64,000 bases of DNA from NCBI RefSeq assembly GCF_018118585.1, contig NZ_CP069421.1, positions 2,046,001-2,110,000 of the forward strand, in the 5' to 3' direction. A program made the translations under genes and the position numbers. Within the stretch, counting starts at the first letter, position 1. Every line of letters begins with the position of its first letter. Shown here in pieces: positions 44,740 to 62,661 of the stretch. The DNA is from Aristaeella lactis. Its GTDB lineage: Bacteria; Bacillota; Clostridia; Christensenellales; Aristaeellaceae. Below the pieces are notes generated by a model that was given only the letters and a program-made list of their open reading frames with translations, had not been told where the DNA came from and searched no databases.

Positions 44740-45000
44740 TCACTCCTCATCCCTGTACGGCGTTTCGTAGCCCATTGCCCGTTCACTGTCCCCGATCCCG
44801 GCGGTCGTGGGATCCACGATCACGCCGATCAGGCCCAGGAAAGTCAGCACCTGGTTCAGCAGCTGTACCACCAGGTTCTGCGTTACCGCGGGAAACACGT
44901 CAAACAGCGCCAGCAGGCTGTAGACAAACCCAACGATCAGGCTGAAAAAACTTCCCAGCCATACTTTGTTCTGAAAACGAACCTTCCAGTTAATCTTCAT
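44740..45000 (-). CDS. Phage holin, phi-LC3 type
   Basis: 86 aa. MKINWKVRFQNKVWLGSFFSLIVGFVYSLLALF and a second hydrophobic stretch match the phi-LC3 holin family, which opens the membrane so endolysin can reach the wall. GGAGG RBS. Last gene of the tail/lysis locus. It ends with acidic residues (GYETPYRDEE). Confidence 0.9.
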   Translation of the reverse strand: MKINWKVRFQNKVWLGSFFSLIVGFVYSLLALFDVFPAVTQNLVVQLLNQVLTFLGLIGVIVDPTTAGIGDSERAMGYETPYRDEE

Positions 45001-45044
45001 CTTTTTTCCTCCTCATCACACTTTACATGTTTTCATTCTGAATT

Positions 45045-45210
45045 GTTGAGGAAGCATCCACGCTTAAGACTGATCTGTCAGCGCTTTAGCGCTGGTAACA
45101 GATCGTCCATGCAGGCGTCAGCGTTTCAGCGCTGGTAACGCCGAGCCATTCGTGGTAAATGCTTCCCATGCTACAGCCGTCCGGATTTTTAATTCGGGTA
45201 ACGGCGATCG
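45045..45210. repeat. Composite double-hairpin element, copy 1 (expanded)
   Basis: Begins GTTGAG and ends GGCGATCG like copies 2 and 3. An outer stem GGAAGCAT/ATGCTTCC carries a bulge, and inside it two hairpins, GATCTGT-CAGCGC...GCGCTG-GTA-ACAGATC and GGCGT-CAGCG...GCGCTG-GTA-ACGCC. A further GCCGT-CCGG...TTCGG-GTA-ACGGC follows. Each hairpin has a 3-nt bulge GTA on the 3' side. Flanked by heptamer-like ATTCTGAATTG and AGAATTATGCATTG. Lies between holin and XhlA-like genes. Confidence 0.75.
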
Positions 45211-45215
45211 CAGAA

Positions 45216-45434
45216 TTATGCATTGTGGATTAGCTTCACTTCCGCCTGCAGGTTTTTCACCTGCTCCTCCAGCCGGTACATTCGTTCCACCACGCTGTTA
45301 TGCTTATCCACCTTCTCCTCCAGCTTTTCCAGCCGGTATGCCACCAGGGCCGCCTGCTTCCTGTTGCTCATATAGACACCCAGGAACGCGAAACCCGCGG
45401 TGATCAGCGCCGCAACGATCGTCTCAATGTTCAT
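45216..45434 (-). CDS. XhlA/BhlA-like holin accessory protein
   Basis: 72 aa. N-terminal TM (IVAALITAGFAFLGVYMS) then a coiled coil (LEKLEEKVDKHNSVVERMYRLEEQVKNLQAEV), the reverse of some XhlA layouts but the same content. Starts by ATGA overlap with the endolysin stop. The stop codon (TAA at 45218-45216) lies in heptamer-like repeat sequence flanking the double-hairpin element. Confidence 0.75.
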   Translation of the reverse strand: MNIETIVAALITAGFAFLGVYMSNRKQAALVAYRLEKLEEKVDKHNSVVERMYRLEEQVKNLQAEVKLIHNA

Positions 45435-46285
45435 TCTTTCATCAGCTCCTTTCTCGTCACCGGTCCCACAATGCCGTCCATCTTCAGCCCGTGATCCTTC
45501 TGGAAGGCCTTCACCGCCGCCAGGGTATCTTTCCCGAATTTCCCGTCAATCCCGCAGGAACCTACACTGTATCCCTTCCTTTCCAGCACCTCCTGCAGTT
45601 CCTTAACAGTCTCCCCTCTACTCCCCTTCCGAAGCGTCGGCCAGGCTTCAACCATTAATTGTTCATTGTTCATTGTTGAGCAGTTGTCCAAATCTTTGAT
45701 TTGGGTAACAGCTGCCATATTACAGCCGTCAAAGTTCCCATTGGAACTTTGGTCACGGCGATCATGTAATTCTTCATTGCCGGCATTGATATAATCAATG
45801 CCGGCCAACTCTCCCCAATGCGTCCATTTCCCCGCCGTGACCTTCGTTGTGGTCACCCCGTTGATCGTTCCCATCGCTTCGATCACAGTTCCGTCTCCCA
45901 CAAACAAGCCCACATGGCTGTACCGGCTGCCGTTCCACACGAAAACCGCCGTGCCCGGTTTCAGGACAGCGCAGTCCGTGCGTTTTCCTTTCTTCAGTTC
46001 CCCCTTTTCCGTGCACCATTTCCGGTACATCGTGTCGGACCCGTGATACATCGTGCCGCCCAGCTGCTTAAAAGCCCATGAAAAAAGGCCGCTGCAGTCA
46101 GCGACCGTGTGCCCGATCCATTTCTTTCCGTATTTTCGTCCCTGGGCCCTGTTGGAATCAGTGCTTTTCTCCAGTTCCCGTTGTTTGGCTTCCGTCCACT
46201 TCTCCCCGGCCGTTCCCCAGATATATCCCCATTTCTCCTTCAGGGCCTGCCGGAACTTTTCGATCAATGCTTCCGTTGTGATCAT
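45431..46285 (-). CDS. Endolysin: NlpC/P60 peptidase plus peptidoglycan-binding domain
   Basis: 284 aa from MITTEALIEKF at 46285 (AGGAGG, spacing 7). NlpC/P60 catalytic motif with Cys in HTVADCSGLFSWAF (about 62) and His in GSRYSHVGLFVGDG (about 125). The C-terminal PG_binding_1 domain is at about 215-284 (LRKGSRGETVKELQEVLERKGYS). The linker of about residues 170-210 (NEELHDRRDQSSNGNFDGCNM...STMNNEQ) is the in-frame translation of a double-hairpin repeat and its heptamer flanks. Cleaves peptide cross-links of peptidoglycan. Confidence 0.9.
   Translation of the reverse strand: MITTEALIEKFRQALKEKWGYIWGTAGEKWTEAKQRELEKSTDSNRAQGRKYGKKWIGHTVADCSGLFSWAFKQLGGTMYHGSDTMYRKWCTEKGELKKGKRTDCAVLKPGTAVFVWNGSRYSHVGLFVGDGTVIEAMGTINGVTTTKVTAGKWTHWGELAGIDYINAGNEELHDRRDQSSNGNFDGCNMAAVTQIKDLDNCSTMNNEQLMVEAWPTLRKGSRGETVKELQEVLERKGYSVGSCGIDGKFGKDTLAAVKAFQKDHGLKMDGIVGPVTRKELMKE
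45656..45779. repeat. Double-hairpin element copy 2 with heptamer flanks, inside the endolysin gene
   Basis: Core of 91 bp at 45675-45765 (GTTGAG...GGCGATCAT), flanked by ATTGTTC heptamers (45656-45674) and AATTCTTCATTG. Hairpin A: GCAGTTGT-CCAAATC...GATTTGG-GTA-ACAGCTGC. Hairpin B: GCCGT-CAAAGTTCC...GGAACTTTG-GTC-ACGGC. Linked by CATATTACA. Translated in frame as the endolysin linker. Confidence 0.85.
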
Positions 46286-46414
46286 TTGCACCCCTCCTGT
46301 TCAAATCAATTATCAGCGTCTATTTCTCCTTTTTCATCCTGTTCATTCCCCTCCCTTTGTCATATTCTTTAATCAGTAAATAAGCGGCCTGTGCCGCTGA
46401 AGGAGGTAAATCCC

Positions 46415-46702
46415 ATGAAAAAGAACCTGTTTATTGTAAGCTTCTGTTACCATGGTCTTCTGGGCGGCGACATTATTGCGGATGACAACGCCATTACCTA
46501 CAAAACCGGCAAACTGACCATCCCGGCCAACCTGCGGAACCTGGAAATGAAATACACTGATATCGCCGGCATCACCGAAGACCGCGCGTTGTTTCTTCCC
46601 GCGGTCACCATTCACATGAGAAGCGGTGAAAGCTATAAATTTGTGGTCTTCTTTGCCCGTAAGCGCTTCTGTGAACTGCTCCGCTCCCATGGCGTCATGT
46701 GA
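46415..46702 (+). CDS. Small GRAM/PH-like protein, inserted in tail locus
   Basis: 95 aa from the ATG at 46415 with strong RBS AAGGAGG. All-beta composition (LFIVSFCYHGLLGGDIIADDNAITYKTGKL... AVTIHMRSGESYKFVVFFARKRFCELL) with a closing helix, resembling bacterial GRAM/PH-like domains. Opposite strand to the tail genes. Not recognisably phage. Confidence 0.55.
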   Translation: MKKNLFIVSFCYHGLLGGDIIADDNAITYKTGKLTIPANLRNLEMKYTDIAGITEDRALFLPAVTIHMRSGESYKFVVFFARKRFCELLRSHGVM

Positions 46703-46759: not shown

Positions 46760-47221
46760 TCATGCGCCAGCAACCTGATCCTGAATTCTGCATTCTGAAT
46801 TCTGCATTGTTTTCCCAATCCCCGCAGGGATCGGTAAAACACTTCCCCCTCTCACCGTCACCGTCCCGTCCCCGTTGTCTGTCAGGATGCTTCCCGGAGA
46901 GGCAGCCTCCAGTACCGCGGGGACGGTTTCATTTGTTCCGTCCCAGGTCCACAGGGCCAGCTTGGCCAGCACATACCACCGGAAAGCTTCATCCGGAACA
47001 TCTGTGCCCAGATTCGCGCGTTTCAGTCCTGAAGCCTCCGCCATACTGTCCAGCTGAATTCCCTCCGCACAGGCAAACGAATACCCCGGCTGCAGGGCCG
47101 CAGCCAGGGTCATCAGGTCCGCCGCCTGCCGGAGGACAGCTTCTGCCAGCGCCATAAAGCGAGGCCGTTCCCGGGAAGAAGCGGGAAAAAGAGAAAGATA
47201 ATCCGACAATTCACAATTCAT
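46760..47221 (-). CDS. Baseplate-associated phage protein (DUF2612-like)
   Basis: 153 aa. LAEAVLRQAADLMTLAAALQPGYSFACAEGIQLDSMAEASGLKR and YVLAKLALWTWDGTNETVPAVLEAASPG fit DUF2612, a protein found after baseplate J in contractile tails. The last ~15 residues (TMQNSECRIQDQ...) are translated heptamer repeat, and the ATG itself lies in an AATTGTGAATTG stretch. Weak RBS; likely coupled to the J gene 16 bp upstream. Confidence 0.75.
   Translation of the reverse strand: MNCELSDYLSLFPASSRERPRFMALAEAVLRQAADLMTLAAALQPGYSFACAEGIQLDSMAEASGLKRANLGTDVPDEAFRWYVLAKLALWTWDGTNETVPAVLEAASPGSILTDNGDGTVTVRGGSVLPIPAGIGKTMQNSECRIQDQVAGA
46780..46811. repeat. Heptameric repeat array inside the 3' end of the DUF2612-like gene
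   Basis: TGAATTC TGCATTC TGAATTC TGCATTG: four units at exact 7-bp period, translated as the C-terminus of the gene. Confidence 0.85.
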
Positions 47222-47237: not shown

Positions 47238-48155
47238 TTAACTGAAATAGAAGATCACACCGCCGTTCTGAATGGTGGTGATTTTTTCGTTCCACGCGCA
47301 GGGAACAAGATCCCGCGCCGCGGAAGATTCGCCGCTTACTGCTGCCTGGATATCAGTGATGATAAAGGTTTTCGCGATCTCCGGTTTCGCGTTGTAGGCT
47401 GCGCCGTAAAGCTGCGGAATGTTCAACGGTGCCGCCAGGCCCAATCCGTTGATGTAGTCCGCCACCGGTCCCTTCAGGGCATTTCGGATCTCATCCCGGT
47501 TTCCGCCCTCCAGCACCCGGATAAAGAGATAGACCACGATCATCTTGTCCGTATTCCGGGTAAAGGAAACCGGATGACCGTTCCCCTGGGCGTCCGGGAC
47601 AGTAACCGTGGTGCTTCCCCATGTCCCGATCCCCGGCGGCTTTTTATCGAAGATTGCCTGTGCCACAGCTTCCCCGTTTCCGCCGTCGGTCACCACCGCG
47701 ATGCTGTGTGCGGGAATACTGATGCTGTCTGTACTGTCTGTATCATTCACATACAGCCGGGCATCGCGTACACCTTTCGCTCCTTTCACCGCGGCCAGCA
47801 GGGCATCCGCCGTTCCGGTACTCCGGCCAGCCAGGGAATGCCGGATCCGTGCCCGTACAGATGCGTCTGTTTCCCCTGCCGCCCGGGTAAGGCCGTAGGC
47901 AGGCAGCAGCAGATCCAGCGCGTTCCCGGAGGCATAAGCCGGATTCCGGGAATTATATGCCTGCAGTACCAGGGCGGAAGCATCATCCAGCGCTTTGGCA
48001 AAAACAGATAACAGCTGGTAATCCGGCACAGCTGGTCCAAGTTCCGTCTCAATACCAAAGATGTTCCGGTAGGCTTCCGTAAGGTCTTCCAGCCGGTCTT
48101 CATAAGTCGGCATATGGATGCCGGTTCCGTCAATATATGGCGCGAAATAAGACAT
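47238..48155 (-). CDS. Baseplate J family protein (gp47-like)
   Basis: 305 aa. YEDRLEDLTEAYRNIFGIETELGPAVPDYQLLSVFAKALDDASALVLQAYNSRNPAYASGNALDLLLPAYGLTR is the classical baseplate_J N-terminus, and ETDASVRARIRHSLAGRSTGTADALLAAVKGAKGV the second conserved block. It forms the outer wedge of the contractile baseplate. GGAGG RBS. First of a block J - DUF2612 - endolysin - XhlA - holin downstream of an inserted sigma locus. Confidence 0.93.
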   Translation of the reverse strand: MSYFAPYIDGTGIHMPTYEDRLEDLTEAYRNIFGIETELGPAVPDYQLLSVFAKALDDASALVLQAYNSRNPAYASGNALDLLLPAYGLTRAAGETDASVRARIRHSLAGRSTGTADALLAAVKGAKGVRDARLYVNDTDSTDSISIPAHSIAVVTDGGNGEAVAQAIFDKKPPGIGTWGSTTVTVPDAQGNGHPVSFTRNTDKMIVVYLFIRVLEGGNRDEIRNALKGPVADYINGLGLAAPLNIPQLYGAAYNAKPEIAKTFIITDIQAAVSGESSAARDLVPCAWNEKITTIQNGGVIFYFS

Positions 48156-48212: not shown

Positions 48213-48242
48213 TGAAACCTGTTTGCCGGCTTCTCCGTCTAA
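48213..48242 (+). promoter_or_regulatory. ECF-type promoter of the plus-strand sigma operon
   Basis: Perfect TGAAAC (48213-48218), 17-bp spacer, CGTCTAA (48236-48242). Best example of the motif with the one at 32193. Confidence 0.7.
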
Positions 48243-48288
48243 CGGATGTCAAAATGCCCGGGCAGATTATCTTCAGGAGGAAACCAAA

Positions 48289-48771
48289 GTGACCAACGAA
48301 GCCTTTACCGAGGCGATTATCCGGATGACACCCACGTTATACCGGATCGCCAGGGGCCAGCTGATGATCGAGGCGGATCAGCAGGATGCCGTACAGGAAG
48401 CCATCCGGCGCAGCTGGGAAAAGCGGGAAAACCTGAAGGACGAGCGCTACCTTCAGACCTGGGTCATCAGGATTCTCCTCAACGCGTGCCACGATATCCA
48501 GCGTCATGAAAAGCGGGTATACCCTGTCAGCGAGATTCCTGATCGTCCCCTGGACGCGCCGGAATTCGTCGACCTGCGGGGCGCCCTGCTTCAGCTGAAG
48601 GAAAAGTACCGCGTTCCCGTCATCCTGCACTATATCGAAGGATATGAGATCAGGCATGTGTCAGAGATCCTGAAGCTCCCTGCCAGCACCGTTAAAACGA
48701 GACTTATGCGCGGCCGCACCAGGCTGCGGGACATCCTGAACGAGGAGGCTTTGGAAGAATATGAAACGTAA
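48289..48771 (+). CDS. ECF-family RNA polymerase sigma factor (sixth in window)
   Basis: 160 aa from a GTG at 48289 (CAGGAGG, spacing 8); an upstream in-frame extension runs through the promoter and is rejected. Region 2 (LMIEADQQDAVQEAIRRSWEKRENLKDERYLQTWVIRILLNACHD) and region 4 (YEIRHVSEILKLPASTVKTRLMRGRTRLRD) intact. Paralogue of the factor at 30205. Inserted on the opposite strand between the wedge gene and baseplate J. Confidence 0.93.
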   Translation: MTNEAFTEAIIRMTPTLYRIARGQLMIEADQQDAVQEAIRRSWEKRENLKDERYLQTWVIRILLNACHDIQRHEKRVYPVSEIPDRPLDAPEFVDLRGALLQLKEKYRVPVILHYIEGYEIRHVSEILKLPASTVKTRLMRGRTRLRDILNEEALEEYET

Positions 48772-51649: not shown

Positions 51650-52009
51650 TCATTCTGATTCATAGGAAATATCAACGCTCCCATCCGTGGTCTCCGCAAT
51701 AAAGGAAAAGCGGAGCCTGCGGCCGTCAGCAGAAACTTTTGACTCCCGGATGTCATGTACTCCGGGAGTTTCCCGTATATAGGAGGACAGGTATCCGGCA
51801 ATCAGCTGCCCGTCTGCTTCCGTCAGCCGGGATTCCTTCAGCATCTCCAGTACGCCATTGCCCCGGCCCGGGTTTTCCCACCACTCGCCGGTCAGCAGCC
51901 GAAGCCGGTCATGGATCAGTTCCGCCGTCGCCCTGCTCCCCTTCAGCATATCCGAAACCCTGAGTACCGGCAGCACATCCCCGGATTCATCCACAGGCCG
52001 GATAAGCAT
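51650..52009 (-). CDS. Baseplate wedge protein (gp25/XkdS-like)
   Basis: 119 aa. LRVSDMLKGSRATAELIHDRLRLLTGEWWENPGRGNGVLEML and YIRETPGVHDIRESKVSADGRRLRFSF correspond to gp25-like/DUF2634 wedge proteins. GGAGAG RBS. It ends 3 bp from the convergent sensor gene, with no space for a terminator. Confidence 0.8.
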   Translation of the reverse strand: MLIRPVDESGDVLPVLRVSDMLKGSRATAELIHDRLRLLTGEWWENPGRGNGVLEMLKESRLTEADGQLIAGYLSSYIRETPGVHDIRESKVSADGRRLRFSFIAETTDGSVDISYESE

Positions 52010-52035: not shown

Positions 52036-52078
52036 CGCAATTAATTCTGAATTCTGAATTCTTAATTCTGAATTGTTC
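52036..52078. repeat. Heptameric repeat array containing the stop of the spike gene
   Basis: TTAATTC TGAATTC TGAATTC TTAATTC TGAATTG: five units at exact 7-bp period. The spike gene's TAA (52064-52062) falls inside. Confidence 0.9.
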
Positions 52079-52427
52079 TCGGGTTCTTCCTGAACCCTAC
52101 AAACGCGAATGCATCTGACAAGGAGTGCCTCCTCCCCGACCTGGGCTCTCCAGTCTCTCCGTTCTCCTGCCAGGCATCCGTATCATAGTCCGCGAATACC
52201 ACCAGGCACGCGTCTCCCGGATTCACTTCAAAGGGAACCGGCATAAAGACCGGCACATCCCGCAGCAGCGGAAAGCCAGACGCCGCGGGCCGGATCTCCG
52301 CGGTCCCTTTTCCCGGATCAAAGGTTTCCACCGTTCCCGGCATGGCACAGTGTAAAGAGGTTAAAATATCCTTCTTCACCGCCAGCCATTCGGAAGGAGA
52401 CAATCCGCCGTCTGTCGAATGATTCAT
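52062..52427 (-). CDS. Gp138-like baseplate spike protein
   Basis: 121 aa from MNHSTDGGLSP at 52427 (GAGGTGA). LHCAMPGTVETFDPGKGTAEIRPAASG, PVFMPVPFEVNPGDACLVVFADYDTDAW and HSLSDAFAFVGFRKNPR match the Gp138 N-terminal OB-fold, part of the membrane-puncturing spike. It ends right after the OB fold, so the usual spike tail is missing or encoded elsewhere. The final residues TIQN and stop come from heptamer repeat. Confidence 0.8.
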   Translation of the reverse strand: MNHSTDGGLSPSEWLAVKKDILTSLHCAMPGTVETFDPGKGTAEIRPAASGFPLLRDVPVFMPVPFEVNPGDACLVVFADYDTDAWQENGETGEPRSGRRHSLSDAFAFVGFRKNPRTIQN

Positions 52428-53930: not shown

Positions 53931-54296
53931 TCAGTTTTCATCCGGTATTTCATCCAGAAACAGCAGCCTGAACTCCGCCAGGTTTTCCCCGGCCGGATCC
54001 CGGGTGGATGGTTCCTCTGTTCCGCGCAGGCAAAGCAGGCTGCCTGCCCCTTTTCCGTTCCGCAGATGCCGGAAAGGCCGCAGCAGGTCATTCATCTCCC
54101 CGCGGGAACAGATCAGCGGGATCATGTTTACCAGCAGTTCACCCGCCGCGTGGTCCCAAAGGGAAAAGAACCACTGGTCCGCGGCCGGCAGGTACCGCAG
54201 CTCCGCCTGCGCGTGAAAAGGTTCCCCGCCGATGGACAGATCCAGCGTCATCACCTGCCACGTTTCCCCTGTCACCGGTAATAAATACCCCGTCAT
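53931..54296 (-). CDS. Phage baseplate plug-family protein
   Basis: 121 aa. VMTLDLSIGGEPFHAQAELRYLPAADQWFFSLWDHAAGELLVNMIPLICSRGEMNDLL and LAEFRLLFLDE have the pattern of baseplate plug proteins. RBS GGGAGAG. Lies between Dit-like and hub genes, its normal place. Confidence 0.75.
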   Translation of the reverse strand: MTGYLLPVTGETWQVMTLDLSIGGEPFHAQAELRYLPAADQWFFSLWDHAAGELLVNMIPLICSRGEMNDLLRPFRHLRNGKGAGSLLCLRGTEEPSTRDPAGENLAEFRLLFLDEIPDEN

Positions 54297-54319: not shown

Positions 54320-54362
54320 AACTATTAATTGTTCATTGTTCATTGTTAATTGTTCATTGGTT
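54320..54362. repeat. Heptameric repeat array, ATTGTTC type
   Basis: ATTGTTC ATTGTTC ATTGTTA ATTGTTC ATTGGTT: five units at 7-bp period, adjacent to the stop of the Dit-like gene at 54361. Confidence 0.9.
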
Positions 54363-54960: not shown

Positions 54961-55932
54961 TCAGATGACAAACTGGAATACGCAGAACGCGGCATACACG
55001 CACAGCAGGAAGATGCCCTGGAACCGGGTCAGCTTCTGCCGTTTCAGCGCCGGAAGCGTCATGAAAGCCATCACAAAGAACATTACGGGAATATCCACCG
55101 CCAGGGAAACCGGCGTGCCGCAGATGGTATTACTGACAGGCACTTTGAACGGGCTGAGCGTTGTGCTCAGGCCGGAAACCAGCACCAGGTTGAACAGGTT
55201 CGCGCCGACGATGTTGCCCAGGCTCAGGGCGCCGTGGCCTTTCACCAGCGCCGTGATGGCCGTTACCAGTTCCGGCAGGCTGGTACCCAGCGCCACAAAG
55301 GTCAGGGCGATCACGCTTTCCGGAACGCCGATAGCCTCGGCGATCAGGGTTCCGTTATCCACCAGCAGGTTGGCGCCTACGGCAATGCTTACCGCGCCGG
55401 CGGCCAGCATCAGCATGGTCTTCCAAAGGGGGGATTCCCCGTCTTCCGCTTCCTCAGCATCATCCGTACTTCCGTAGCCGTTCTTTTTCCCGTCCCAGAT
55501 GGTGTAGGCGATATAGGCAGCAAAAATCAGCAGGAGCACAATGCCGGACAGGCGGCTGAAGGTCCGGCCGATATAAGCGTTCAGGGCATAATACACTGCC
55601 GCGATGAAGAAAAAGACCACCGGCACCCGGAAGCTCTTTGTGTCCACCTTGCAGGGCCGTATCGCGAAGGTAACAGCGGAGATCAGCGCCGTGTTGCAGA
55701 TCACGCTCCCGATGGCGTTTCCGTAGGCGATCTCACTATGGCCCTTCAGCGCGCCGGTCGCGGAGACCAGCACCTCCGGCAGGGTCGTTCCGATGGCAAC
55801 CACCGTCGCCCCGATCACAAGCTCCGGAACATGAAAACGGCGGGCCAGATCCGTGGAACCATCCACAAACCAGTCCCCGCCCTTGATCAGCAGTATGAAT
55901 CCCAGCAGAAACAGCAAAACCGGTACGAGCAT
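54961..55932 (-). CDS. Sodium/calcium antiporter (CaCA family)
   Basis: 323 aa from MLVPVLLFLLG at 55932. Two alpha repeats are visible: GATVVAIGTTLPEVLVSATGALKGHSEIAYGNAIGSVICNT (about 42-82) and ALTFVALGTSLPELVTAITALVKGHGALSLGNIVGANLFNL (about 210-250), with ten or so TM helices and an acidic central loop. It exchanges Na+ (or H+) for Ca2+ at the membrane. A housekeeping gene inserted between tape measure and Dit-like genes, with its own terminator. Confidence 0.93.
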   Translation of the reverse strand: MLVPVLLFLLGFILLIKGGDWFVDGSTDLARRFHVPELVIGATVVAIGTTLPEVLVSATGALKGHSEIAYGNAIGSVICNTALISAVTFAIRPCKVDTKSFRVPVVFFFIAAVYYALNAYIGRTFSRLSGIVLLLIFAAYIAYTIWDGKKNGYGSTDDAEEAEDGESPLWKTMLMLAAGAVSIAVGANLLVDNGTLIAEAIGVPESVIALTFVALGTSLPELVTAITALVKGHGALSLGNIVGANLFNLVLVSGLSTTLSPFKVPVSNTICGTPVSLAVDIPVMFFVMAFMTLPALKRQKLTRFQGIFLLCVYAAFCVFQFVI

Positions 55933-56043
55933 TCTGTTCTCCCCCTTCCGACAGGGGAAATTATACCATATCATTTCATATGCGCGACCTTCGCTTTGCG
56001 GAAATAGAACCGTCTATTTCTCCGGAAACCGCAAAATAGAATT

Positions 56044-56826
56044 TTATCCTTTGGCTGACTGCAGGGTCCGCAGCAGGTATCGTTCCGCCGTATCATAAAG
56101 GCTGCGGCCGATCTGCTCCGGATCGCTTCCCGCTGCCGTCACATGGATATTCACCGGCGCGGATACGTTCTGGCTGTAATGACTGACACTCCCCGTTCCC
56201 GCCTCCCCCGCTTTGGGGATTTCAGAAAGAACCAGGCTCATCCGCGAAGCATTCAGATCTCCCCGAATCTCCGACATCAGTTCTGACTTCACGAATCCCG
56301 TCCCTGAATTGTTTGTATGTTCCAGGCTGCCGGATAATAATTCTGAATTCTGAATTCTTAATTCTGAATTAATTCTATTCCCTCCGCCCGTAGGCGTTAA
56401 TGCTGAATTCTGAATTCGTAATTCTGAATTGGCTTTCAGCTTTACTTCCACCGGATCCGAAAAGATGCTCCGGATACTGCCCACCGCGCTCCGCGCGGCG
56501 GATACGATCCCGGAGGCGTTGGCTTTCAGTGAAACAGGCTGTTTCACCAGAGCGGTGAAACTCTCATAATCGCTGAAAGCCTGTGCCAGGTCCAGCCCGA
56601 CAGGCAGCCTGCCCGGACCTGCGGTTTCTTCCACAGGGACATCGAAACCGGAAAAGCCCGGCAGGATACCCAGCTCTTCCGAAAAGGAGCGGATCGCCGC
56701 GGACGCACCGTCAAAAGCTGCTGCCAGCTGCTCCGCCAGTTCGCGGTTTTCAGACAGGACAGACTGCAGGCGGCTGACGCCTGCTTCATCAATTTTGACG
56801 GCAAAGGAAGCCAGGAATTCCTGCAC
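56044..56826 (-). CDS. Short tail tape-measure-like protein with in-frame repeat insertions
   Basis: 260 aa from a GTG at 56826 (AGGAGGGG, spacing 6); a TTG 30 bp earlier is unlikely. Helical N-terminus (VSRLQSVLSENRELAEQLAAAFDGASAAIRSFSEEL) and a C-terminus VNIHVTAAGSDPEQIGRSLYDTAERYLLRTLQ typical of tape-measure ends. The middle has two translated heptamer arrays (NSELRIQNSAL and NSELRIQNSELL) separated by TPTGGGNRI. Normal tape measures have 500-1500 residues, so this would specify a very short tail tube or be a degenerate gene. Confidence 0.65.
   Translation of the reverse strand: MQEFLASFAVKIDEAGVSRLQSVLSENRELAEQLAAAFDGASAAIRSFSEELGILPGFSGFDVPVEETAGPGRLPVGLDLAQAFSDYESFTALVKQPVSLKANASGIVSAARSAVGSIRSIFSDPVEVKLKANSELRIQNSALTPTGGGNRINSELRIQNSELLSGSLEHTNNSGTGFVKSELMSEIRGDLNASRMSLVLSEIPKAGEAGTGSVSHYSQNVSAPVNIHVTAAGSDPEQIGRSLYDTAERYLLRTLQSAKG
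56334..56433. repeat. Two heptameric arrays inside the tape-measure gene
   Basis: Arrays at about 56335-56372 (AATTCTG x2, AATTCTT, AATTCTG) and 56403-56430 (TGAATTC TGAATTC GTAATTC TGAATTG), both on the 7-bp period, with a 30-bp spacer. The reading frame stays open through both. Confidence 0.9.
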
Positions 56827-56881
56827 GAGATACCCCCTCCTGAAAGAAATTTTCAATTTTTACAATTTTTTTACAAAAAAG

Positions 56882-56932: not shown

Positions 56933-57130
56933 ATGAGAAAGACGAAGGTTTACGTGATCAGACGCCAGGGGGAGCTCTATACACGTTTCTCACTCAGCAC
57001 GCACCGTGACTCGGTGACGGGCGATCTTTCCATTTCTTTCACCCTCCCCGGCAAAGCCTGGACCTTCTGTTTCGAGAAACCCATCCCGGAACTGGGCCTG
57101 TTTGTCTGGGGAGATACGGAACATGTCTGA
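56933..57130 (+). CDS. Small protein under an ECF-type promoter
   Basis: 65 aa from the ATG at 56933 (GGAGGG, spacing 8). Beta-rich: KTKVYVIRRQGELYTRFSLS, TGDLSISFTLPGKAWTFCFEKP, LGLFVWGDTEHV. No signal, no TM, no known family. On the strand opposite to the tail genes, between tape measure and chaperone, with its own promoter and terminator. The only non-sigma, non-envelope gene here that carries the CGTCTAA promoter. Confidence 0.55.
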   Translation: MRKTKVYVIRRQGELYTRFSLSTHRDSVTGDLSISFTLPGKAWTFCFEKPIPELGLFVWGDTEHV

Positions 57131-57183: not shown

Positions 57184-57411
57184 TTATATCCGGGCGGCTT
57201 CGGCCGCCCTTTTTTCATTTTCCCTTCGCACCCGGATCAGCTCCGTAATGTCCAGCAGGTCGTCCAGCGTATAGGTGCCGTCCCAGAGTTCATGCTGCCG
57301 CCACATTCCGGCGGCTACCGGCAGAAAGAGGAACTCATCGATGTTCGGGCAGGTCAGGGGGATGTATCCGCAGGGGCTGTTTCCATCCCCGACCCGCCTT
57401 CGCCGAAAAAA
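57184..57411 (-). CDS. -1 frame extension of the tail assembly chaperone (GT-like)
   Basis: Entered by a -1 shift at T-TTT-TTC (57411-57405). The -1 frame reads RRRRVGDGNSPCGYIP and then PNIDEFLFLPVAAGMWRQHEL, WDGTYTLDDLLDITELIRVRRENEKRAAEAA to a TAA at 57186. It has no usable start codon or RBS of its own near the join. Fused length is 189 aa, exactly in frame after slippage. Matches the G/GT strategy of tail chaperones. Confidence 0.8.
   Translation of the reverse strand, partial: FFRRRRVGDGNSPCGYIPLTCPNIDEFLFLPVAAGMWRQHELWDGTYTLDDLLDITELIRVRRENEKRAAEAARI
57192..57215 (+). terminator. Plus-strand terminator of the small ECF-promoter gene
   Basis: GGGCGGC-TTCG-GCCGCCC stem with UUCG loop then six T residues on the plus strand. 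It lies within the last codons of the chaperone extension on the other strand. Confidence 0.85.
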
Positions 57412-57752
57412 CCGGACAGGCTCCAGGCGATGCCCTCCATCAGCAGTCTCATGCAGGAACGGGTATCGTGCTCCAGCTCCGGATAGCCCCATTCGCTGCC
57501 GGTCATCACCGGCTGGGGCCCGGCAGGCAGCAGCACGGAAACATGGTTCAGCACCGCCGTCATCACAGACCGAAGTTCCTCCTCCGACAGGGAGGCGATC
57601 AGGTCCAGCATCGTAGGATGTTCGATCTTCCCTTCCAGCCTCATCAGCAGCCGGAGCAGTACCACCCCGGAAAAAGCATCAAGTTTGAAAAGGCGAAAAC
57701 CGAGAAGGTTCCCGTCTTTCCTGATTTCGATATCCTTTGTGACTGTGCGCAT
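57354..57752 (-). CDS. Tail assembly chaperone (G-like, zero frame)
   Basis: 132 aa from MRTVTKDIEIRKDG at 57752 (AGGAG, spacing 8); a GTG three codons earlier is unlikely. Content FRLFKLDAFSGVVLLRLLMRLEGK and SLSEEELRSVMTAVLNHVSVLLPAGPQ fits small helical chaperones found between tube and tape measure. The frame stops at 57354 after a slippery T-TTT-TTC. Chaperones of this type coat the tape measure during tail assembly. Confidence 0.8.
   Translation of the reverse strand: MRTVTKDIEIRKDGNLLGFRLFKLDAFSGVVLLRLLMRLEGKIEHPTMLDLIASLSEEELRSVMTAVLNHVSVLLPAGPQPVMTGSEWGYPELEHDTRSCMRLLMEGIAWSLSGFFGEGGSGMETAPADTSP
57405..57411 (-). promoter_or_regulatory. Slippery heptamer for programmed -1 frameshift
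   Basis: Zero-frame codons GGT TTT TTC contain T-TTT-TTC, a canonical X-XXY-YYZ slippery site. A possible GGGG...CCCC stem follows 15-35 nt downstream. Confidence 0.8.
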
Positions 57753-57776
57753 AGCAAACACTCCTAATTATGAATT

Positions 57777-57898: not shown

Positions 57899-58333
57899 TT
57901 ACTGTTCCGTTATGGTCGTTGCCAGCAGGGTATAACTGACGTTCGTTGCCATCCGGTCATAAGTCCGGTCCGGCGCTTTCTGCAGGGAAACCCCGGTACA
58001 GATGGTTTTGAACCCGGACACCGTATCCGTAATGGTCAGTGTTCCCAGGGCAATCCGGTTCGGATTGCCCGTATTTTTTGCCCACCTGGCCCAGCGCCTG
58101 AGGAAATCATCCCCGATACTGTTCTGCGGCACCTCAATCTGGATGGTGCCGTTTGTTGTTTTCAGCCGGTTCACCACCACATATCCGTCCGCGGTAGCTG
58201 TATGGGAGCTCAGGTCCCCGGCCGCTGCCACGGTGATCTTCCCGATACCGCACAGATGCAGGTTCGCCGTCCCCACATCCGGATGGTACAAAACCGACTT
58301 CACATCCGGAAGGGAATAAACGTTATAAGCCAT
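57899..58333 (-). CDS. Phage tail tube protein (DUF3277-like)
   Basis: 144 aa. NVYSLPDVKSVLYHPDVGTANLHLCGIGKITVAAAGDLSSHTATADGYVVVNRLKTTNGTIQIEVPQNSIGDDFLRRWARW and a final VSYTLLATTITEQ match DUF3277 proteins that follow DUF3383 sheaths. AAGGAGG RBS. Stop codon (TAA) sits at the edge of a heptamer array. Confidence 0.85.
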   Translation of the reverse strand: MAYNVYSLPDVKSVLYHPDVGTANLHLCGIGKITVAAAGDLSSHTATADGYVVVNRLKTTNGTIQIEVPQNSIGDDFLRRWARWAKNTGNPNRIALGTLTITDTVSGFKTICTGVSLQKAPDRTYDRMATNVSYTLLATTITEQ

Positions 58334-58353
58334 GCGTGCCTCCTTCTGCTATG

Positions 58354-58377
58354 ATGACCGCCTTGCCAGGCGGTCAT
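58354..58377. promoter_or_regulatory. Perfect inverted repeat upstream of the tube gene
   Basis: ATGACCGCC-TTGCCA-GGCGGTCAT, 9-bp arms, 20 bp upstream of the tube gene start on one side and before the plus-strand gene at 58435 on the other. No T-run follows on either strand, so an operator or leader hairpin is as likely as a terminator. Confidence 0.5.
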
Positions 58378-58434
58378 TTCTGTGATAGTTTGTATATAGA
58401 CAGGTTACATCCCGGTAATGAAAGGAGCATATAT

Positions 58435-58713
58435 ATGGTCACCATTCTGAACCGCAAAAGGCTTCTGGCTGACTCTTCCAGCGAAACAGCGGCAAAAGTA
58501 CGGGAGGCGCTGAAAGCTGCCGGTATTAAGTATTTCATGAAAACTGTCCAGAACAGCACCGCGCTGGGAAAAGCCATCCACACCAGCATAGGTGCCCGTA
58601 CATATGGTTCCGGTATGCCATCCTCTTCTTACTCTGACCAGGTCAGTTATGTTTACATGGTCTATGTCAGCAGGAAGGATTACGCCCGGGCAAAAGACCT
58701 CTGCCACCTGTGA
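58435..58713 (+). CDS. Small DUF2007-like protein
   Basis: 92 aa from the ATG at 58435 (AAAGGAG, spacing 7). KVREALKAAGIKYFMKTVQ... VSYVYMVYVSRKDYARAKDLCHL follows the short alpha-beta plan of DUF2007-type putative signal-transducing proteins, ending in a V-x-V-x-K-x-D-x-x-A-K block. Plus strand, next to a second gene of related plan. Confidence 0.5.
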   Translation: MVTILNRKRLLADSSSETAAKVREALKAAGIKYFMKTVQNSTALGKAIHTSIGARTYGSGMPSSSYSDQVSYVYMVYVSRKDYARAKDLCHL

Positions 58714-58799: not shown

Positions 58800-59327
58800 A
58801 TGGCGCTGATATGTGAGAAATGCAGGCGTATTATTATGGAAGATGTGTGTCCCTTCTGCGGAAGCACAGAAACCCGTGAACCGGCCGATGATGACCACTG
58901 TTATCTGACCATCCTGAATCTACCCAGTGAGGCAGCGGTTCTTAAAGAGCTCCTGAACCAGAAAGGCATCCCGTTCAGGATGAACATCGTCAGCATTGAT
59001 AAACATACTGTTACCCGTGATGTCTATGTTCCCTACAGCTGTCTGGAAGAAGCGCAGCGCGAAATGGCAAAGCTTTGGAAAGAAGAACCTGCGGGCGATG
59101 CCTGGAACGAAGAATTGGGATCCGATGTCTTCCAGGCGGATGAGATCGACCAGATGGAATGCTCCATTCTGGACGGTATGGACCTGGAAGAGCTTAAAGC
59201 CTATAAGGACAAGATCTCGAAAACCCTGAAGGAGATCAAGGCTCTGGAGCAGTTGTGGAAAGAGCGTACAAACAGGCTGCTTGATATGCGGGAAGAAGCC
59301 GAAACCCTCATCGACGAACTGTCGTAA
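58800..59327 (+). CDS. Zinc-ribbon protein with DUF2007-like domain and coiled coil
   Basis: 175 aa. Zinc ribbon CEKCRRIIMEDVCPFCGS at 5-22, DUF2007-like domain (LNLPSEAAVLKELLNQKGIPFRMNI ... RDVYVPYSCLEEAQREMAKL, about 40-95), acidic linker and a C-terminal coiled coil (LKAYKDKISKTLKEIKALEQLWKERTNRLLDMREEAETLIDEL). Cytoplasmic, function unknown. Own terminator. Inserted between tube and sheath genes. Confidence 0.65.
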   Translation: MALICEKCRRIIMEDVCPFCGSTETREPADDDHCYLTILNLPSEAAVLKELLNQKGIPFRMNIVSIDKHTVTRDVYVPYSCLEEAQREMAKLWKEEPAGDAWNEELGSDVFQADEIDQMECSILDGMDLEELKAYKDKISKTLKEIKALEQLWKERTNRLLDMREEAETLIDELS

Positions 59328-59454: not shown

Positions 59455-60561
59455 TCATATCTCTACTTTTATTTCAATCACAACAGACTCAATGCTTCCC
59501 GCCAGGCACAGCGCGCACTGCACCGGTACAGCCCTGTGCGCCGCCCGGTCAGCTTCGCTTTGGTCATCATAGCTGTCCGCCCAGAGCATAAACCCGTTCT
59601 CGACGATCTCCCCGCTCCGGACAGGTCCCGCATCTGTCCCGCGCCACACGGCGGAAGCCAGCACACCCCGGTCGGTATAGCCCATGAGAATGGAGGAAAA
59701 CCGGTTGATAAACTGAGCCGTGGAATCATCCGTCTGGGGCATCTTATCCGGATTTTCCGCCAGCAGCGTCACCGCGGCGTTCTGCAGGTCTTCCGCGATT
59801 TTATCCGTATAGAGGACTTCATCATACCGCTGCCCGTTAGCCATCGTTCCGTTCTCAAACAGAAAGTGGGTATAGCCCCGCGCCACGTACACATTTCCAT
59901 TCTTTGCCTTAATGCTGTCCGCCTGTCCCTGTGTCAGCGCGGAAGGCTGTATTCCCTGGATGGTCTTGTAGCACAGGGCAAAGGCGGTTTTCTGATGTGC
60001 CAGTTCCAGTCCCATGGCTGTTCCCATCACCGCCGCGCAGTCAGGAACCGCGGCGCAGCAGAACGGCAGCGTCCGTTTCAGCCGTTCCCGGTACAGCCGG
60101 TCCAGCGGTCCATCCGCGGCAGCGGAAAAAGACAATACCGGGGCAAAGAGTACCGCCGGAACCGGCAGGGCTTCCACGTACCGGGCCAGTCTCGTCAACG
60201 CCTCATCTGTCAGGGGCGATACCGGCATTACACCGTAAAAATCTGCCGTCTGCTCCAGCACCGCGTCCAGAGCGTCCTCCGCCGTCTGTGAAACCGGATA
60301 ACAGGAAACCAGCAGGTGCCCTGGTGCCGGAGAAGCCGCGAAATACTTCAGCGCCGCCCCACAGGCATCCCCGTCCGCCTCAAACCCCAGGGCAGTCAGT
60401 CCGGCAGTGGCCTCCGCCCCGGAGGTATAAACCTGCAGCCGGCGCTCCTCCGTATATCCGGTGTCCGGAACCAGCAGCAGGCCTGTATCAAAAGAGGACG
60501 GAGCGGCGGATGCCCGGACGGTGCTGACCGCCACGCGGGCAACAGGATTAATGCTCAGCAC
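59455..60561 (-). CDS. Contractile tail sheath protein (DUF3383-like)
   Basis: 368 aa from a GTG at 60561 (GGAGG, spacing 8); an ATG five codons upstream overlaps that RBS. VLSINPVARVAVSTVRASAAPSSFDTGLLLVPD, FPCCAAVPDCAAVMGTAMGLELAHQKTAFALCYKTIQGIQPSALTQGQADSIKAKNGNVYVARG and LMGYTDRGVLASAVW are DUF3383 sheath features. Marks the locus as a contractile (myovirus-type) tail. The NT5C terminator lies directly upstream, so expression must restart or read through. Confidence 0.88.
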   Translation of the reverse strand: MLSINPVARVAVSTVRASAAPSSFDTGLLLVPDTGYTEERRLQVYTSGAEATAGLTALGFEADGDACGAALKYFAASPAPGHLLVSCYPVSQTAEDALDAVLEQTADFYGVMPVSPLTDEALTRLARYVEALPVPAVLFAPVLSFSAAADGPLDRLYRERLKRTLPFCCAAVPDCAAVMGTAMGLELAHQKTAFALCYKTIQGIQPSALTQGQADSIKAKNGNVYVARGYTHFLFENGTMANGQRYDEVLYTDKIAEDLQNAAVTLLAENPDKMPQTDDSTAQFINRFSSILMGYTDRGVLASAVWRGTDAGPVRSGEIVENGFMLWADSYDDQSEADRAAHRAVPVQCALCLAGSIESVVIEIKVEI

Positions 60562-60589
60562 AGAAAAAGCCTCCATTTCATTACGGTTT

Positions 60590-60687: not shown

Positions 60688-61230
60688 TTATTCCATCCGG
60701 TCTATGGCTTCAACGATCTCATCCCAGTTATGCACCCGGATCATACCGTTGGCCTCCGCGTCATAGTCCCGGTTGTAGGGCCGTGTAAAGAGGATTTTTT
60801 TGTATTCCCCGCCTTCCAGGTTGTGAATGCCGTCATCGATCAGCACGTCTCCCCGGATCATCTGCTTCCGGCTGGTAATAATGACCTGCTGCGGGGACAG
60901 GAAGGGAAAGTACCGGAAGAGCACATCCTCCATTTTCCTGTGCACATGCTCAAACTCTGTGGCTGTAACGACGTAGACTTTATGCCCTTCATCCATGAAA
61001 TGCTTCAGCGCTTCCGCCGCGCCGGGCACGGGCTTCACGTCCTCCCAGAAATCATCCTCGCGCATAAAGTCGAGGATCTGCCGTTTTTCAATGCCCGGGA
61101 AAGCACACACGATGGTCCAGTCGGTCACGTCATCCACCGACACGTTCCGGTCAAACCGCTCATTGGCCCGTTTCACCAGGGCTTCCAGCAGCTGCTCCAT
61201 GGTATCGTCCATATCCACAAGGATCGTCAC
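60688..61230 (-). CDS. HAD-family 5'(3')-deoxyribonucleotidase-like protein (NT5C type)
   Basis: 180 aa from a GTG at 61230 (GGAGGTGA). Motif I DMDDTMEQL gives the nucleophile and acid Asp; VVTATEFEHVHRKMEDVLFRYFPFLSPQQVIITSRKQMIRGDVLIDDG supplies motifs II-IV. NT5C enzymes dephosphorylate (deoxy)nucleoside monophosphates. Also common in phages, so it might be cargo of the tail locus, but it has its own terminator. Confidence 0.85.
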   Translation of the reverse strand: MTILVDMDDTMEQLLEALVKRANERFDRNVSVDDVTDWTIVCAFPGIEKRQILDFMREDDFWEDVKPVPGAAEALKHFMDEGHKVYVVTATEFEHVHRKMEDVLFRYFPFLSPQQVIITSRKQMIRGDVLIDDGIHNLEGGEYKKILFTRPYNRDYDAEANGMIRVHNWDEIVEAIDRME

Positions 61231-61293: not shown

Positions 61294-61875
61294 TCATAAT
61301 TCGTCCTGATGTCTGGTGCCGCCCTGGTGTTTCAGGATCACAACAGGCGCTGTAGCAATGGAAGGCCGCGTCCCCGCCTGCTGTTCATACCGGATGCGCA
61401 GCGGGATCGACAGGTCCGCCCGTTTCCGCCAGAGGGAGCCCTCCTCCTCATGCATCAGGGCCGGCTGCGGCGGATCCGGAACGGGAAAGATTCCGGCGTC
61501 CCGCAGAATCCGCCGGGGAAACCCGTTTCCGTCCAGGTACAGCATGTGCCGGATCCGGAGCGCGTACTCCTCTGAAGCCGGACCGTAACAGACAATGATC
61601 AGCCGGTATTTCAGCGTTGTGTACACCAGGGCTGTGTTTCTGCCTGTTCCGGCCTCTTGGGGAACATATGCGGTGGACACCGGATCGGAAGCCGGATCCT
61701 GCAGCAGTGTCCAGTAGATCACATTCCGGTTTACCGGCGGCCGCGGGGCGTTTTCCGGTTCAGCATAAGCCTCACGGATCAGCGCGGCGGCCTCACGGGA
61801 CAGATTATTCACCCCTGCGCAGGCACAAAGAGCATCAAAAAGGGCAATTTGAACCGGTTTTGAAGGAAAATTCAT
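61294..61875 (-). CDS. Phage neck/tail terminator protein
   Basis: 193 aa from MNFPSKPVQIALF at 61875 (GGAG 9 bp upstream). NVIYWTLLQDPASDPVSTAYVPQEAGTGRNTALVYTTLKYRLIIVCYGPASEEYALRIRHMLYLDG matches the neck-terminator (LIC_12616-like) family, which caps the tail tube. Its position just before the sheath agrees. The 3' end (DEL-stop) runs into heptamer-like sequence (AATTATGAATTG on the minus strand). Confidence 0.8.
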   Translation of the reverse strand: MNFPSKPVQIALFDALCACAGVNNLSREAAALIREAYAEPENAPRPPVNRNVIYWTLLQDPASDPVSTAYVPQEAGTGRNTALVYTTLKYRLIIVCYGPASEEYALRIRHMLYLDGNGFPRRILRDAGIFPVPDPPQPALMHEEEGSLWRKRADLSIPLRIRYEQQAGTRPSIATAPVVILKHQGGTRHQDEL

Positions 61876-61915
61876 CGTTTTCTTCTCCATTTGTATGGTA
61901 TTTCGCGCACAAGTG

Positions 61916-61924
61916 TGATATAAT
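61916..61924 (+). promoter_or_regulatory. Extended -10 promoter of the HU gene
   Basis: TGATATAAT (61916-61924), a TGN extended -10, about 40 bp before the ATG. No clear -35. Confidence 0.5.
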
Positions 61925-61965
61925 CACATCAAAAGCAGGGCACACGCCCGGAAAGGATAATAAAC

Positions 61966-62250
61966 ATGAACAAAACAGAACTCGTTGAAGTCGTATCCTC
62001 TAAAGCTGGAGTTACCAAAACCGAGGCTCAGAAAGTTGTTACCGCCACGCTGGAAGCTATCGTCCAGGGTGTAGTTGCCGATGGCAAAGTTATCCTGCCC
62101 GGCTTCGGCACCTTTGAAACCCGTCAGCGTTCCGCCCGTAACGGCCGGAACCCCCGCACCGGCGAAGTGATCAAGATCAAGGCGACAAAGGCCCCCGCCT
62201 TCAAGCCCGGCAAGGGAATGAAGGACGCCGTCGCGAAGAAAAAGAAGTAA
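61966..62250 (+). CDS. hup: HU-family histone-like DNA-binding protein
   Basis: 94 aa. MNKTELVEVVSSKAGVTKTEAQKVVTATLEAIVQGV, the LPGFGTFETRQRSARNGRNPRTGE arm and KAPAFKPGKGMKDAV are full HU signatures, with a lysine-rich tail. It bends and compacts DNA. Plus strand, between the first two tail genes, with its own promoter and terminator. Confidence 0.95.
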   Translation: MNKTELVEVVSSKAGVTKTEAQKVVTATLEAIVQGVVADGKVILPGFGTFETRQRSARNGRNPRTGEVIKIKATKAPAFKPGKGMKDAVAKKKK

Positions 62251-62270
62251 GCAAGGCGAATCCATATGCG

Positions 62271-62296
62271 CCGGGAGTGTTCATCACTCCCGGTTT
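62271..62296 (+). terminator. Terminator of the HU gene
   Basis: CCGGGAGTG-TTCAT-CACTCCCGG stem then TTTT on the plus strand; it overlaps the last codons of the convergent adaptor gene. Confidence 0.85.
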
Positions 62297-62661
62297 TCTT
62301 CGTTAATCAGCACCGCCAGGGCCTGAACAAACCCGAATCCCTGCCAGTTCCGTACCCTCACCACCCGCCAGGTCTGACCGTTCCACCGGATCCTGTCCGG
62401 CGCGGTAAAGGAGCCGCTGTCATCCGCCGGTGTTCCGGTGCTCAGGGCATAGTCGGTATAGATCACAATACAGGACTCCTTCTTTTCCTCTTCCGGCAGC
62501 AGTTTCAGGCTTTCCGCTGTTCCGGGATGAATGCAGCCCGCCGCCTGCCCGGTCACGCTGCAGGAAACCGTTCCCTCCCGGCTCCGGGTGCAGGTGATCC
62601 GCTCAACGGTAAAAGCAACAGATCCCAGTTCGGGATCATGGAGAACAGAAGAAATACCCAT
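62284..62661 (-). CDS. Phage head-tail adaptor-like protein (first gene of tail locus)
   Basis: 125 aa. TVERITCTRSREGTVSCSVTGQAAGCIHPGTAESLKLLPEEEKKESCIVIYTDYAL and DRIRWNGQTWRVVRVRNWQGFGFVQALAVL follow the beta-rich plan of small head-tail connector/stopper proteins next to the neck terminator. GGAGG RBS. No capsid, portal or terminase gene follows on the other side, where ordinary chromosomal genes begin. Confidence 0.65.
   Translation of the reverse strand: MGISSVLHDPELGSVAFTVERITCTRSREGTVSCSVTGQAAGCIHPGTAESLKLLPEEEKKESCIVIYTDYALSTGTPADDSGSFTAPDRIRWNGQTWRVVRVRNWQGFGFVQALAVLINEENRE

Follow-up and report, generated by a model that had tools for sequence, protein, structure and literature searches.

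What is a complete set of contractile-tail and lysis genes, seemingly with no head beside it and with cellular genes wedged between its members, doing in the chromosome of Aristaeella lactis? The question is raised by positions 44740–62661 of the window, the 64,000-nucleotide stretch of contig NZ_CP069421.1 (genome G000 below) that ends at genome position 2110000. An earlier note on this DNA had described a headless, possibly domesticated tailocin. Pfam and PHROGs family searches confirm its account of the tail and lysis genes, which lie on the minus strand in canonical order with open frames. However, the locus in G000 is not headless, and looks so in the window because the window ends too early. 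We read it as a vertically inherited, domesticated phage module with a whole virion, most likely a gene transfer agent (GTA), and give this reading a probability of about 0.6.

A capsid query from the viral contig L087 matched G000 at 2119249–2120199, on the same strand as the tail genes and 10.6 kb upstream of the adaptor. The upstream genes continue on that strand, in canonical order, to genome position 2131536. The whole module comprises 26 genes over 40.8 kb (2090743–2131536), of which the phage part makes up 16.1 kb, with many cellular genes between. As in GTAs, phage-derived head, tail and packaging genes lie on the host chromosome (26 of 26, the TerS-like gene by position); tailocins have no capsid or packaging genes, whereas here capsid, portal and TerL are adjacent. 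The earlier statement that capsid, portal and terminase are missing holds inside the window but fails just upstream of it, where the head and terminase genes lie that the note had itself named as evidence against a headless particle. A tailocin is therefore not supported for G000. More generally, where a window or contig breaks off, such a locus may wrongly seem to lack a head.

The detailed comparison covered twelve genomes, for one of which (G204) a single 20-kb stretch was used. All 26 genes were matched in G000, G175, G149 and G185, 25 in G091, 25 in G066 (two of these being fragments) and 20–23 in G227 (partly read), G200, G205, G232 and G132 (which runs out at the edge of a contig). Stops within matches lie near gene ends (p125 and neck in G227; the tail assembly chaperone, TAC, in G132 and G205), before likely starts (the TerS-like gene in G200, p125 in G227) or before the frameshift into the TAC extension (TACT), and further stops occur only in short stray lysin-like matches elsewhere. 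Across the genus, capsid and tube were found in 31 of 45 genomes each and portal in 35 of 45, each reaching 12 of 13 among high-quality genomes. The core control rpoB was likewise found in 31 of 45 (11 of 13 high-quality), so genome incompleteness explains part of the misses. Beyond the genus the module is rare: the sheath was matched in 15 of 200 genomes of a family sample (genus 10/11, others 5/189), and TerL (E ≤ 1e-60) in 6 of the 7 genomes sampled from the genus versus 2 of 389 others of the order. The module is thus nearly restricted to the genus, for which goat, sheep or yak gut is named in the titles of 8 of 39 named relatives, mostly metagenome-assembled genomes (MAGs). Some genomes have several copies; G000, G175 and G149 have a single capsid and portal match.

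Selection was estimated as omega (Nei–Gojobori point estimates over stop-to-stop open reading frames, ORFs). Between G000 and G175, at synonymous divergences (dS) of 0.55–1.29, omega is 0.064–0.429 for 24 of the 26 genes, including tube (0.064), major capsid protein (MCP, 0.088), TerL (0.109), sheath (0.195), hub (0.355) and wedge (0.429); four flanking cellular genes gave 0.057–0.250. The values for spike (0.698) and TACT (0.633) were set aside because the measured ORFs overlap other coding frames; against G185 the same genes gave 0.187 and 0.251. In the closest pairs a few genes are higher on few changes (TAC 0.525, G175–G149; the DUF2612-like gene 0.433, G149–G066). By these estimates, the structural and packaging genes are under purifying selection.

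Functional signatures are conserved as well. TerL retains GAIRSGKT, AYADE, DYG, VDPSAASFK and DHAMDA in nine of nine genomes, which we take to be the Walker-type and three aspartate motifs. The chaperone gene carries, shortly before its end, a T-run slippery heptamer in all 12 genomes (by raw count; TTTTTTC in 11, TTTTTTT in the other), and, as extrapolated from the matches, it shares 135 bases with the next frame in 10 of 11 genomes and 129 in the remaining one. The chaperone that the earlier note had named is present, and overlaps the following ORF as a frameshift pair would. The tape measure, counted from its first start, is 243–307 aa in 10 of 11 genomes and 382 aa in G132 (that of G204 is cut by the edge of the stretch read). 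Tail length scales at about 0.15 nm per tape measure residue, and from the length of this protein a tail of roughly 40 nm is predicted; the gene taken as tape measure in Agathobaculum phage AB434P2 encodes 512 aa.

The module is vertically inherited within its clade, at a fixed locus. Upstream of the TerS-like gene, two CobW-like genes and one DegV-like gene (named by eye) keep their order and orientation in G000, G175, G149, G185 and G227, and in G066 the first of these is present before the contig ends. Two downstream flank genes are common to G175, G149 and G185. We had considered that both flanks might be common with G000; this was dropped, as the sharing is confined to the upstream side. 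Trees were built from rpoB and portal for 21 genomes, using the best match to G000 where there were several portals. The two topologies are identical for G112, G185, G227, G000, G220, G175, G066 and G149, some portal forks among these eight being weakly supported (down to 80/45). Together with the shared genes and slots in sister species and the purifying selection, the upstream flank and the largely host-congruent trees support the retained function and domestication that the earlier note had proposed.

Cellular genes were inserted stepwise, at different slots in different lineages. The HU, exchanger, ECF (extracytoplasmic function) sigma and phosphoesterase genes sit at matching slots in G000, G175, G149 and G066; no close copies of the four were found in the G185 and G227 loci, where an exchanger homologue (32–34%) sits at another slot. 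An acetyltransferase-like insert is shared, but its slot differs in G000. The gap between p168neck and adaptor measures 10441 bases in G175, 7261 in G149 and 11295 in G066, and other large gaps separate neck from sheath (6144, G091), hub from spike (7937, G227) and portal from DUF2213 (6292, G000). Gene order in relatives, which the earlier note had suggested comparing, shows tail genes kept with several of the same inserts, but the head genes are kept as well.

The inserts lie mainly on the strand opposite to the phage genes. In G000 this holds for 20 of 24 inserts versus 20 of 57 surrounding genes (Fisher p 8e-5), as counted with a simple gene caller in species that are related and so not independent. 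Corresponding counts are 23/28 in G175 (p 0.03), 24/30 in G149 (0.009), 24/29 in G066 (0.002), 9/12 in G185 (0.02), 23/28 in G227 (0.05), 10/12 in G091 (0.30) and 4/5 in G205 (0.31). The bias is reversed in G200 (4/18, p 0.43), owing chiefly to the element lodged in its capsid gene. An explanation of the bias by one long read-through transcript was dropped, since the same-strand CaX and NT5C genes are followed by terminator-like sites. Separately, arrays of the 7-base repeat AATTCTG/AATTATG cluster in the locus (window 46777–60624; locus 2090743–2131536), some at phage/cellular gene junctions and two inside the tape measure gene. G000 has 12 in the 41-kb locus versus 2 in the other 63 kb read; the corresponding counts are 16 versus 4 in G175, 16 versus 9 in G149, 9 versus 1 in G066, 1 versus 4 in G185, 0 versus 0 in G091 and 2 versus 4 in G227.

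Table 1. Genes of the module, inserted genes and the recombinase element. Plain coordinates are window positions; "same" denotes the strand of the tail genes.
Feature	Position	Strand	Evidence and occurrence
Holin	44740..45000	-	PF04531 1.2e-21; match in 6/11 compared genomes
XhlA-like holin-associated protein	45216..45434	-	phrog_1863 2.3e-10; phrog_1296 holin 1.7e-4
Endolysin, NlpC/P60 + PG-binding	45431..46291	-	PF00877 7e-11; PF01471 8.6e-18
Inserted cellular gene (earlier note: GRAM-like)	46415..46702	+	no Pfam match; same slot in G175, G149, G066
DUF2612-like baseplate protein	46760..47221	-	PF11041 1.7e-3 (below cut-off); phrog_587 2.4e-8; match in 10/11 compared genomes
Baseplate wedge (J-like)	47238..48155	-	phrog_6 2.2e-22
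Inserted ECF sigma factor	48223..48771	+	PF08281 1.3e-12; same slot in G175, G149, G066
Inserted anti-sigma-like repeat protein, 961 aa	48761..51646	+	coding score and translation, function by eye; homologues at same slot
Baseplate wedge (gp25-like)	51650..52009	-	phrog_120 2.1e-6
Central spike	52062..52400	-	PF18352 2.5e-16
Inserted metallophosphoesterase (Metallophos_2)	52473..53018	+	PF12850 7.6e-21
Baseplate hub	53142..53906	-	phrog_196 3.8e-5
Baseplate plug (Pam3 gp18)	53931..54296	-	PF22479 4.7e-7
Tail protein, Dit-like by position	54361..54885	-	phrog_817 ("tail fiber protein") 3.7e-10; match in 11/11 compared genomes
Inserted Ca2+/Na+ exchanger (Na_Ca_ex)	54961..55974	-	PF01699 4.9e-60; same slot in G175, G149, G066
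Short tape measure, 270 aa, named by position	56044..56856	-	homologues in 12 genomes; sole family match phrog_184 at 0.041
Inserted 65-aa gene	56933..57130	+	coding score; no Pfam match
TAC frameshift extension (TACT), DUF6889	57184..57492	-	PF21829 1.4e-9; overlaps TAC in 11/11
Tail assembly chaperone (TAC), slippery T-run	57354..57761	-	phrog_1688 9.7e-6; slippery site in 12/12 genomes
Tail tube	57899..58333	-	PF11681 KPP10_Orf10 2.5e-15
Inserted cellular gene (earlier note: DUF2007-like)	58351..58713	+	coding score; no Pfam match
Inserted cellular gene (earlier note: DUF2007-like)	58800..59327	+	coding score; no Pfam match
Contractile tail sheath	59455..60576	-	PF11863 (DUF3383) 3e-35; phrog_205 6.6e-45; Pam3 sheath 8hdr (PDB) 7.6e-4
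Inserted 5'-nucleotidase NT5C	60688..61230	-	PF06941 5.4e-31
Neck / tail terminator	61294..61890	-	PF23961 8.6e-12
Inserted HU histone-like gene	61966..62250	+	PF00216 6.7e-31; same slot in G175, G149, G066
Head-tail adaptor	62284..62661	-	phrog_939 (head protein) 2e-17; module runs on upstream past window end
Neck1-like protein	genome 2111062-2111568	same	phrog_222 6.8e-21; starts 2.4 kb upstream of adaptor
DUF4054	genome 2118217-2118624	same	6.1e-8
p125, small conserved protein	genome 2118640-2119017	same	no Pfam/PHROGs confirmation
Major capsid protein (MCP)	genome 2119246-2120217	same	Major_capside 2.8e-62
Cement	genome 2120258-2120758	same	Phage_cement (PF22758) 3.7e-18
DUF2213 protease	genome 2120751-2122052	same	DUF2213 (PF09979) 2.9e-45
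Portal	genome 2128341-2129645	same	Phage_portal_3 (PF06381) 6.9e-104
Large terminase TerL	genome 2129780-2130973	same	Terminase_6N 3.9e-13
TerS-like gene	genome 2131027-2131536	same	named from position and architecture alone
Serine-recombinase element	G200:C40:24737-45735		
Serine-recombinase gene	G066:C6:8121-9698		
Serine-recombinase gene	G212:C32:19631-21166		
Serine-recombinase gene (piece)	G210:C10:49282-49917		

Several individual assignments need comment. Among the interspersed genes named earlier, the HU, nucleotidase, antiporter, phosphodiesterase (a metallophosphoesterase by family) and ECF sigma genes are present, the last with its anti-sigma-like partner, while the GRAM-like and the two DUF2007-like genes gave no Pfam match at E 0.01. 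The Pfam match behind the DUF2612-like label is sub-threshold. The spike label applies to part of a composite ORF (52062–53000), the remainder being antisense to the phosphoesterase. The tape measure takes its name from its position; a candidate tape measure on the minus strand at 48.7–51.6 kb was dropped, as this stretch is the plus-strand 961-aa gene. The reported absence of a tail-fibre gene is qualified by the fibre-labelled family of the Dit-like protein. ECF sigma genes are numerous in and near the locus: phrog_1740 is matched by 6 of the 56 proteins scanned, and reading of the sequences places such genes at window 30205–30681, 37224–37706, 44140–44616 and 48223–48771 and at L041:6445–7131 and 11883–12359.

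Other features were seen in relatives. A secreted leucine-rich-repeat-like gene (by eye) follows p125 in six genomes (G175:C1:2278338–2279783; G149:C1:2224262–2225707; G066:C6:11120–12565; also G185, G227 and G200); it lies on the phage-gene strand and overlaps the DUF4054 start in three genomes, and the PHROGs matched by the G175 copy are all of unknown function. In G200, three small peptides with VSGG double-glycine-like leaders are encoded beside the lysis genes (C40:10682–11499). A duplicated Neck1-like gene (G149:C1:2221283–2223125), a duplicated tube gene (G232:C23:34818–36036) and a C-terminal sheath fragment (G185:C16:121135–121308) are signs of local duplication.

No tyrosine integrase lies near the locus: the nearest of four PF00589 matches in the genome is about 375 kb away. 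Among 56 inserted and flanking proteins, from all but the smallest ORFs, a PHROGs scan gave no replication or integration family in the 25 of 38 matched families that were listed. The 25 comprise sigma factors, helix-turn-helix (HTH) regulators, repressors (two members), an acetyltransferase, a DNA-binding protein and unknowns. A phrog_7043 "tail protein" match in the flanking genes was traced by eye to a metallo-beta-lactamase-like protein outside the module and rejected. In G232 (C23:15001–43123), a related structural module lies beside genes that by eye resemble a polymerase, a primase, a repressor and a different terminase. These replication-type genes indicate that the genus does include a true prophage of this type, and the gaps in this copy are mostly small, the largest (962 bases) being where the second tube gene sits.

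That the module has been kept in working form across related species suggests that it probably yields particles serving the bacterium, perhaps by carrying host DNA to other cells. Conservation of virion and packaging motor points to a DNA-packaging particle, and the TerL, portal, capsid, chaperone overlap, tail and lysis genes would fit one released by lysis. In the mechanism we propose, replication and integration genes are lost and cellular genes have been inserted between many phage genes. A host signal would lead to expression of the dispersed genes, TerL would pack pieces of the host chromosome into heads, and short contractile tails would be added to these. Holin and endolysin would then lyse a fraction of the cells, and the particles would deliver DNA to relatives. 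More tentatively, and at somewhat less than even odds, a contractile-tailed GTA may have been long kept in this genus of ruminant-gut Clostridia and pulled apart by cellular inserts without loss of function, its capsid gene having become the target of a serine-recombinase element, which integrates there and in some lineages shuts down or parasitises the making of particles.

Several results weigh against the GTA reading. Expression, particle formation, packaging of host DNA and delivery are steps that we infer. A certain receptor-binding protein was not identified in the locus, where only the phrog_817 match carries a fibre label, and simple word counts upstream of the dispersed genes recovered no shared promoter motif, giving only Shine-Dalgarno-like AAAGGAG and A/T repeats. 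The G000 tape measure lacks the DGDAEYIIPV-containing block of its close relatives, which is present in G175, G149, G066, G185, G227 and G204 and slightly changed in G200; the motif is also absent from G091, G205, G232 and G132. Pfam gave no match to the TerS-like protein, and PHROGs none that convinces. Its structural model (mean pLDDT 76.6) has three N-terminal helices, with an AraC-type domain as best fold match (E 0.88, a weak HTH resemblance), and possibly contains an HTH, which would set it apart from known GTAs. Part of the capsid absences may be genuine, since 8 of the 14 capsid-less genus genomes have rpoB; five of these (G201, G202, G216, G218 and G230, all <90% complete) also gave no portal match, and in the high-quality G163 the portal was matched but neither capsid nor tube. 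The downstream flank of G000 was not found beside the locus in relatives, a 221-aa gene from it sitting inside the locus in G175, G149 and G066. G219 groups with G112 in the rpoB tree but with G217 in the portal tree, and deeper nodes of the two trees disagree (e.g. G217, G212, G224), so that older exchange is likely. GTAs have a carbon-content signature. Against the single comparator, the G232 prophage copy, carbon per residue is lower in 14 of 19 genes of G000 (p 0.087), 16/19 in G175 (0.029), 13/19 in G185 (0.045), 13/17 in G227 (0.011), 14/19 in G091 (0.007), 13/19 in G205 (0.045) and 10/18 in G132 (0.44); with one comparator, this signature was set aside as weak. Finally, G066 and G200 have a capsid gene broken near codon 104, adjoining a gene for a large serine recombinase; in G212 and G210 the capsid gene is interrupted, judged by position.

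The recombinase copies in G200, G212 and G210 are 98–100% identical to that of G066, and in G212 and G210 (a 212-aa piece in the latter) the recombinase adjoins the C-terminal capsid part. The capsid parts of G200 are about 21 kb apart, separated by tandem recombinases and by sugar-use and ABC-transport-like genes (by eye). Missing from G066 are the N-terminal part of the capsid, the whole cement gene and the greater part of the protease gene; among the genomes read in detail, this one looks headless, and the other genomes with an interrupted capsid gene may be headless too. The element could block or regulate particle formation. Truncated capsid matches in G204 and G225 lie at apparent contig edges and are not assessable.

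The main rival, which we consider unlikely, is a PBSX-like killer particle, in which the same domesticated virion packages host DNA or assembles a head and acts as a bacteriocin without delivering DNA. The contractile sheath, baseplate and lysis module are retained and the tape measure is short in nearly all genomes fully read there, as such a particle might have them, and excerpts of PMC12946183 describe PBSX as GTA-like yet acting as a tailocin. TerL and MCP, however, are among the most constrained genes, with omega below that of hub or wedge, and the variable fibre gene expected of a killer is not apparent, as phrog_817, the only fibre-labelled family, is conserved in the compared genomes.

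A recently decaying prophage, whose genes survive by chance and whose inserts mark early decay, is improbable. It would account for the missing integrase and replication genes, the inserts themselves, the partial loss of the head in G066 and the changed tape measure of G000. The four species with all 26 genes and no mid-gene stops, the low omega at substantial dS, the inserts at common slots in four species and the slippery site kept in all twelve genomes largely refute it. More doubtful again is an active temperate phage lineage with repeated integration at a single site. The prophage of G232, with its related structural genes, and the several copies in some genomes are in keeping with it, but for this clade it is contradicted by the host-congruent tree of eight genomes, the cellular inserts common to relatives, the single capsid and portal match in G000, G175 and G149 and the lack of integration or replication genes at the locus. 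Least probable of all is the headless tail particle proposed at the outset: the window does hold a complete tail and lysis set, and G066 has a truncated capsid and no cement match, yet capsid, portal, protease, cement and TerL are present in G000, with capsid and TerL more constrained than most tail genes. The original observation is therefore partly confirmed, and its interpretation partly supported.

The domesticated, vertically inherited GTA thus remains the preferred reading, and it can be set beside known systems. The RcGTA and CcGTA of Alphaproteobacteria are siphovirus-like, and their cluster is mostly contiguous. By description they resemble this locus in being domesticated, vertical and free of replication genes; unlike them, it has a contractile tail, is interleaved with cellular genes and may keep a DNA-binding fold in TerS. 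PBSX of Bacillus subtilis also has a contractile tail. Its likeness, by the description excerpted from PMC12946183, lies in being GTA-like and tailocin-acting; the family matches of our locus are of KPP10/Pam3/E217 type, and it is set beside PBSX by description only. Tailocins share the contractile tail and lysis cassette, but the locus differs from them in its conserved head and packaging genes. Among phages, the Pam3, KPP10 and E217-type myophages and Agathobaculum phage AB434P2 have the same sheath, tube, plug, cement, DUF2213 and portal families, and PF11863, PF11681, PF22479, PF22758, PF09979 and PF06381 of the KPP10/Pam3/E217-type module were all matched. The best phage record is 39.2% identical in MCP (among the 15 of 366 matches listed) and at most 29.2% in the sheath (among the 10 of 111 listed).

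GTAs and domesticated prophages are already known kinds. Excerpts of PMC11841831 describe GTAs as virion and packaging genes that have been domesticated, are passed on vertically and come without genes for replication, and mention GTAs encoded at several loci. FpGTA of Faecalibacterium, in the excerpted text of PMC12946183, is podovirus-like and encoded in two operons of 10.5 and 5.5 kb, operon I being present in all twelve Faecalibacterium genomes its authors examined. It resembles the present locus as a GTA-like system of gut Gram-positive anaerobes with split loci and lysis genes, but our locus is contractile-tailed, spreads 26 genes over 41 kb and belongs to another lineage. The same excerpts report GTA-like packaging in Christensenellaceae, and their gene-cluster search names MAGs of Onthomonas, Gemmiger and Faecalibacterium only. 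No paper on this locus was found in the part of the open-access literature surveyed. For gut Clostridia the locus offers a defined set of candidate genes, and differences between species provide internal controls: the prophage of G232, the compact locus of G205, the dispersed loci of G091, G185 and G227 and the heavily interleaved ones of G000, G175, G149 and G066. It could show the stepwise taming of a phage, the co-regulation of dispersed genes and the movement of DNA among gut bacteria. What is new relative to the known systems is the lineage, the contractile KPP10/Pam3-type module and its interleaving with cellular genes across a resolved series of species.

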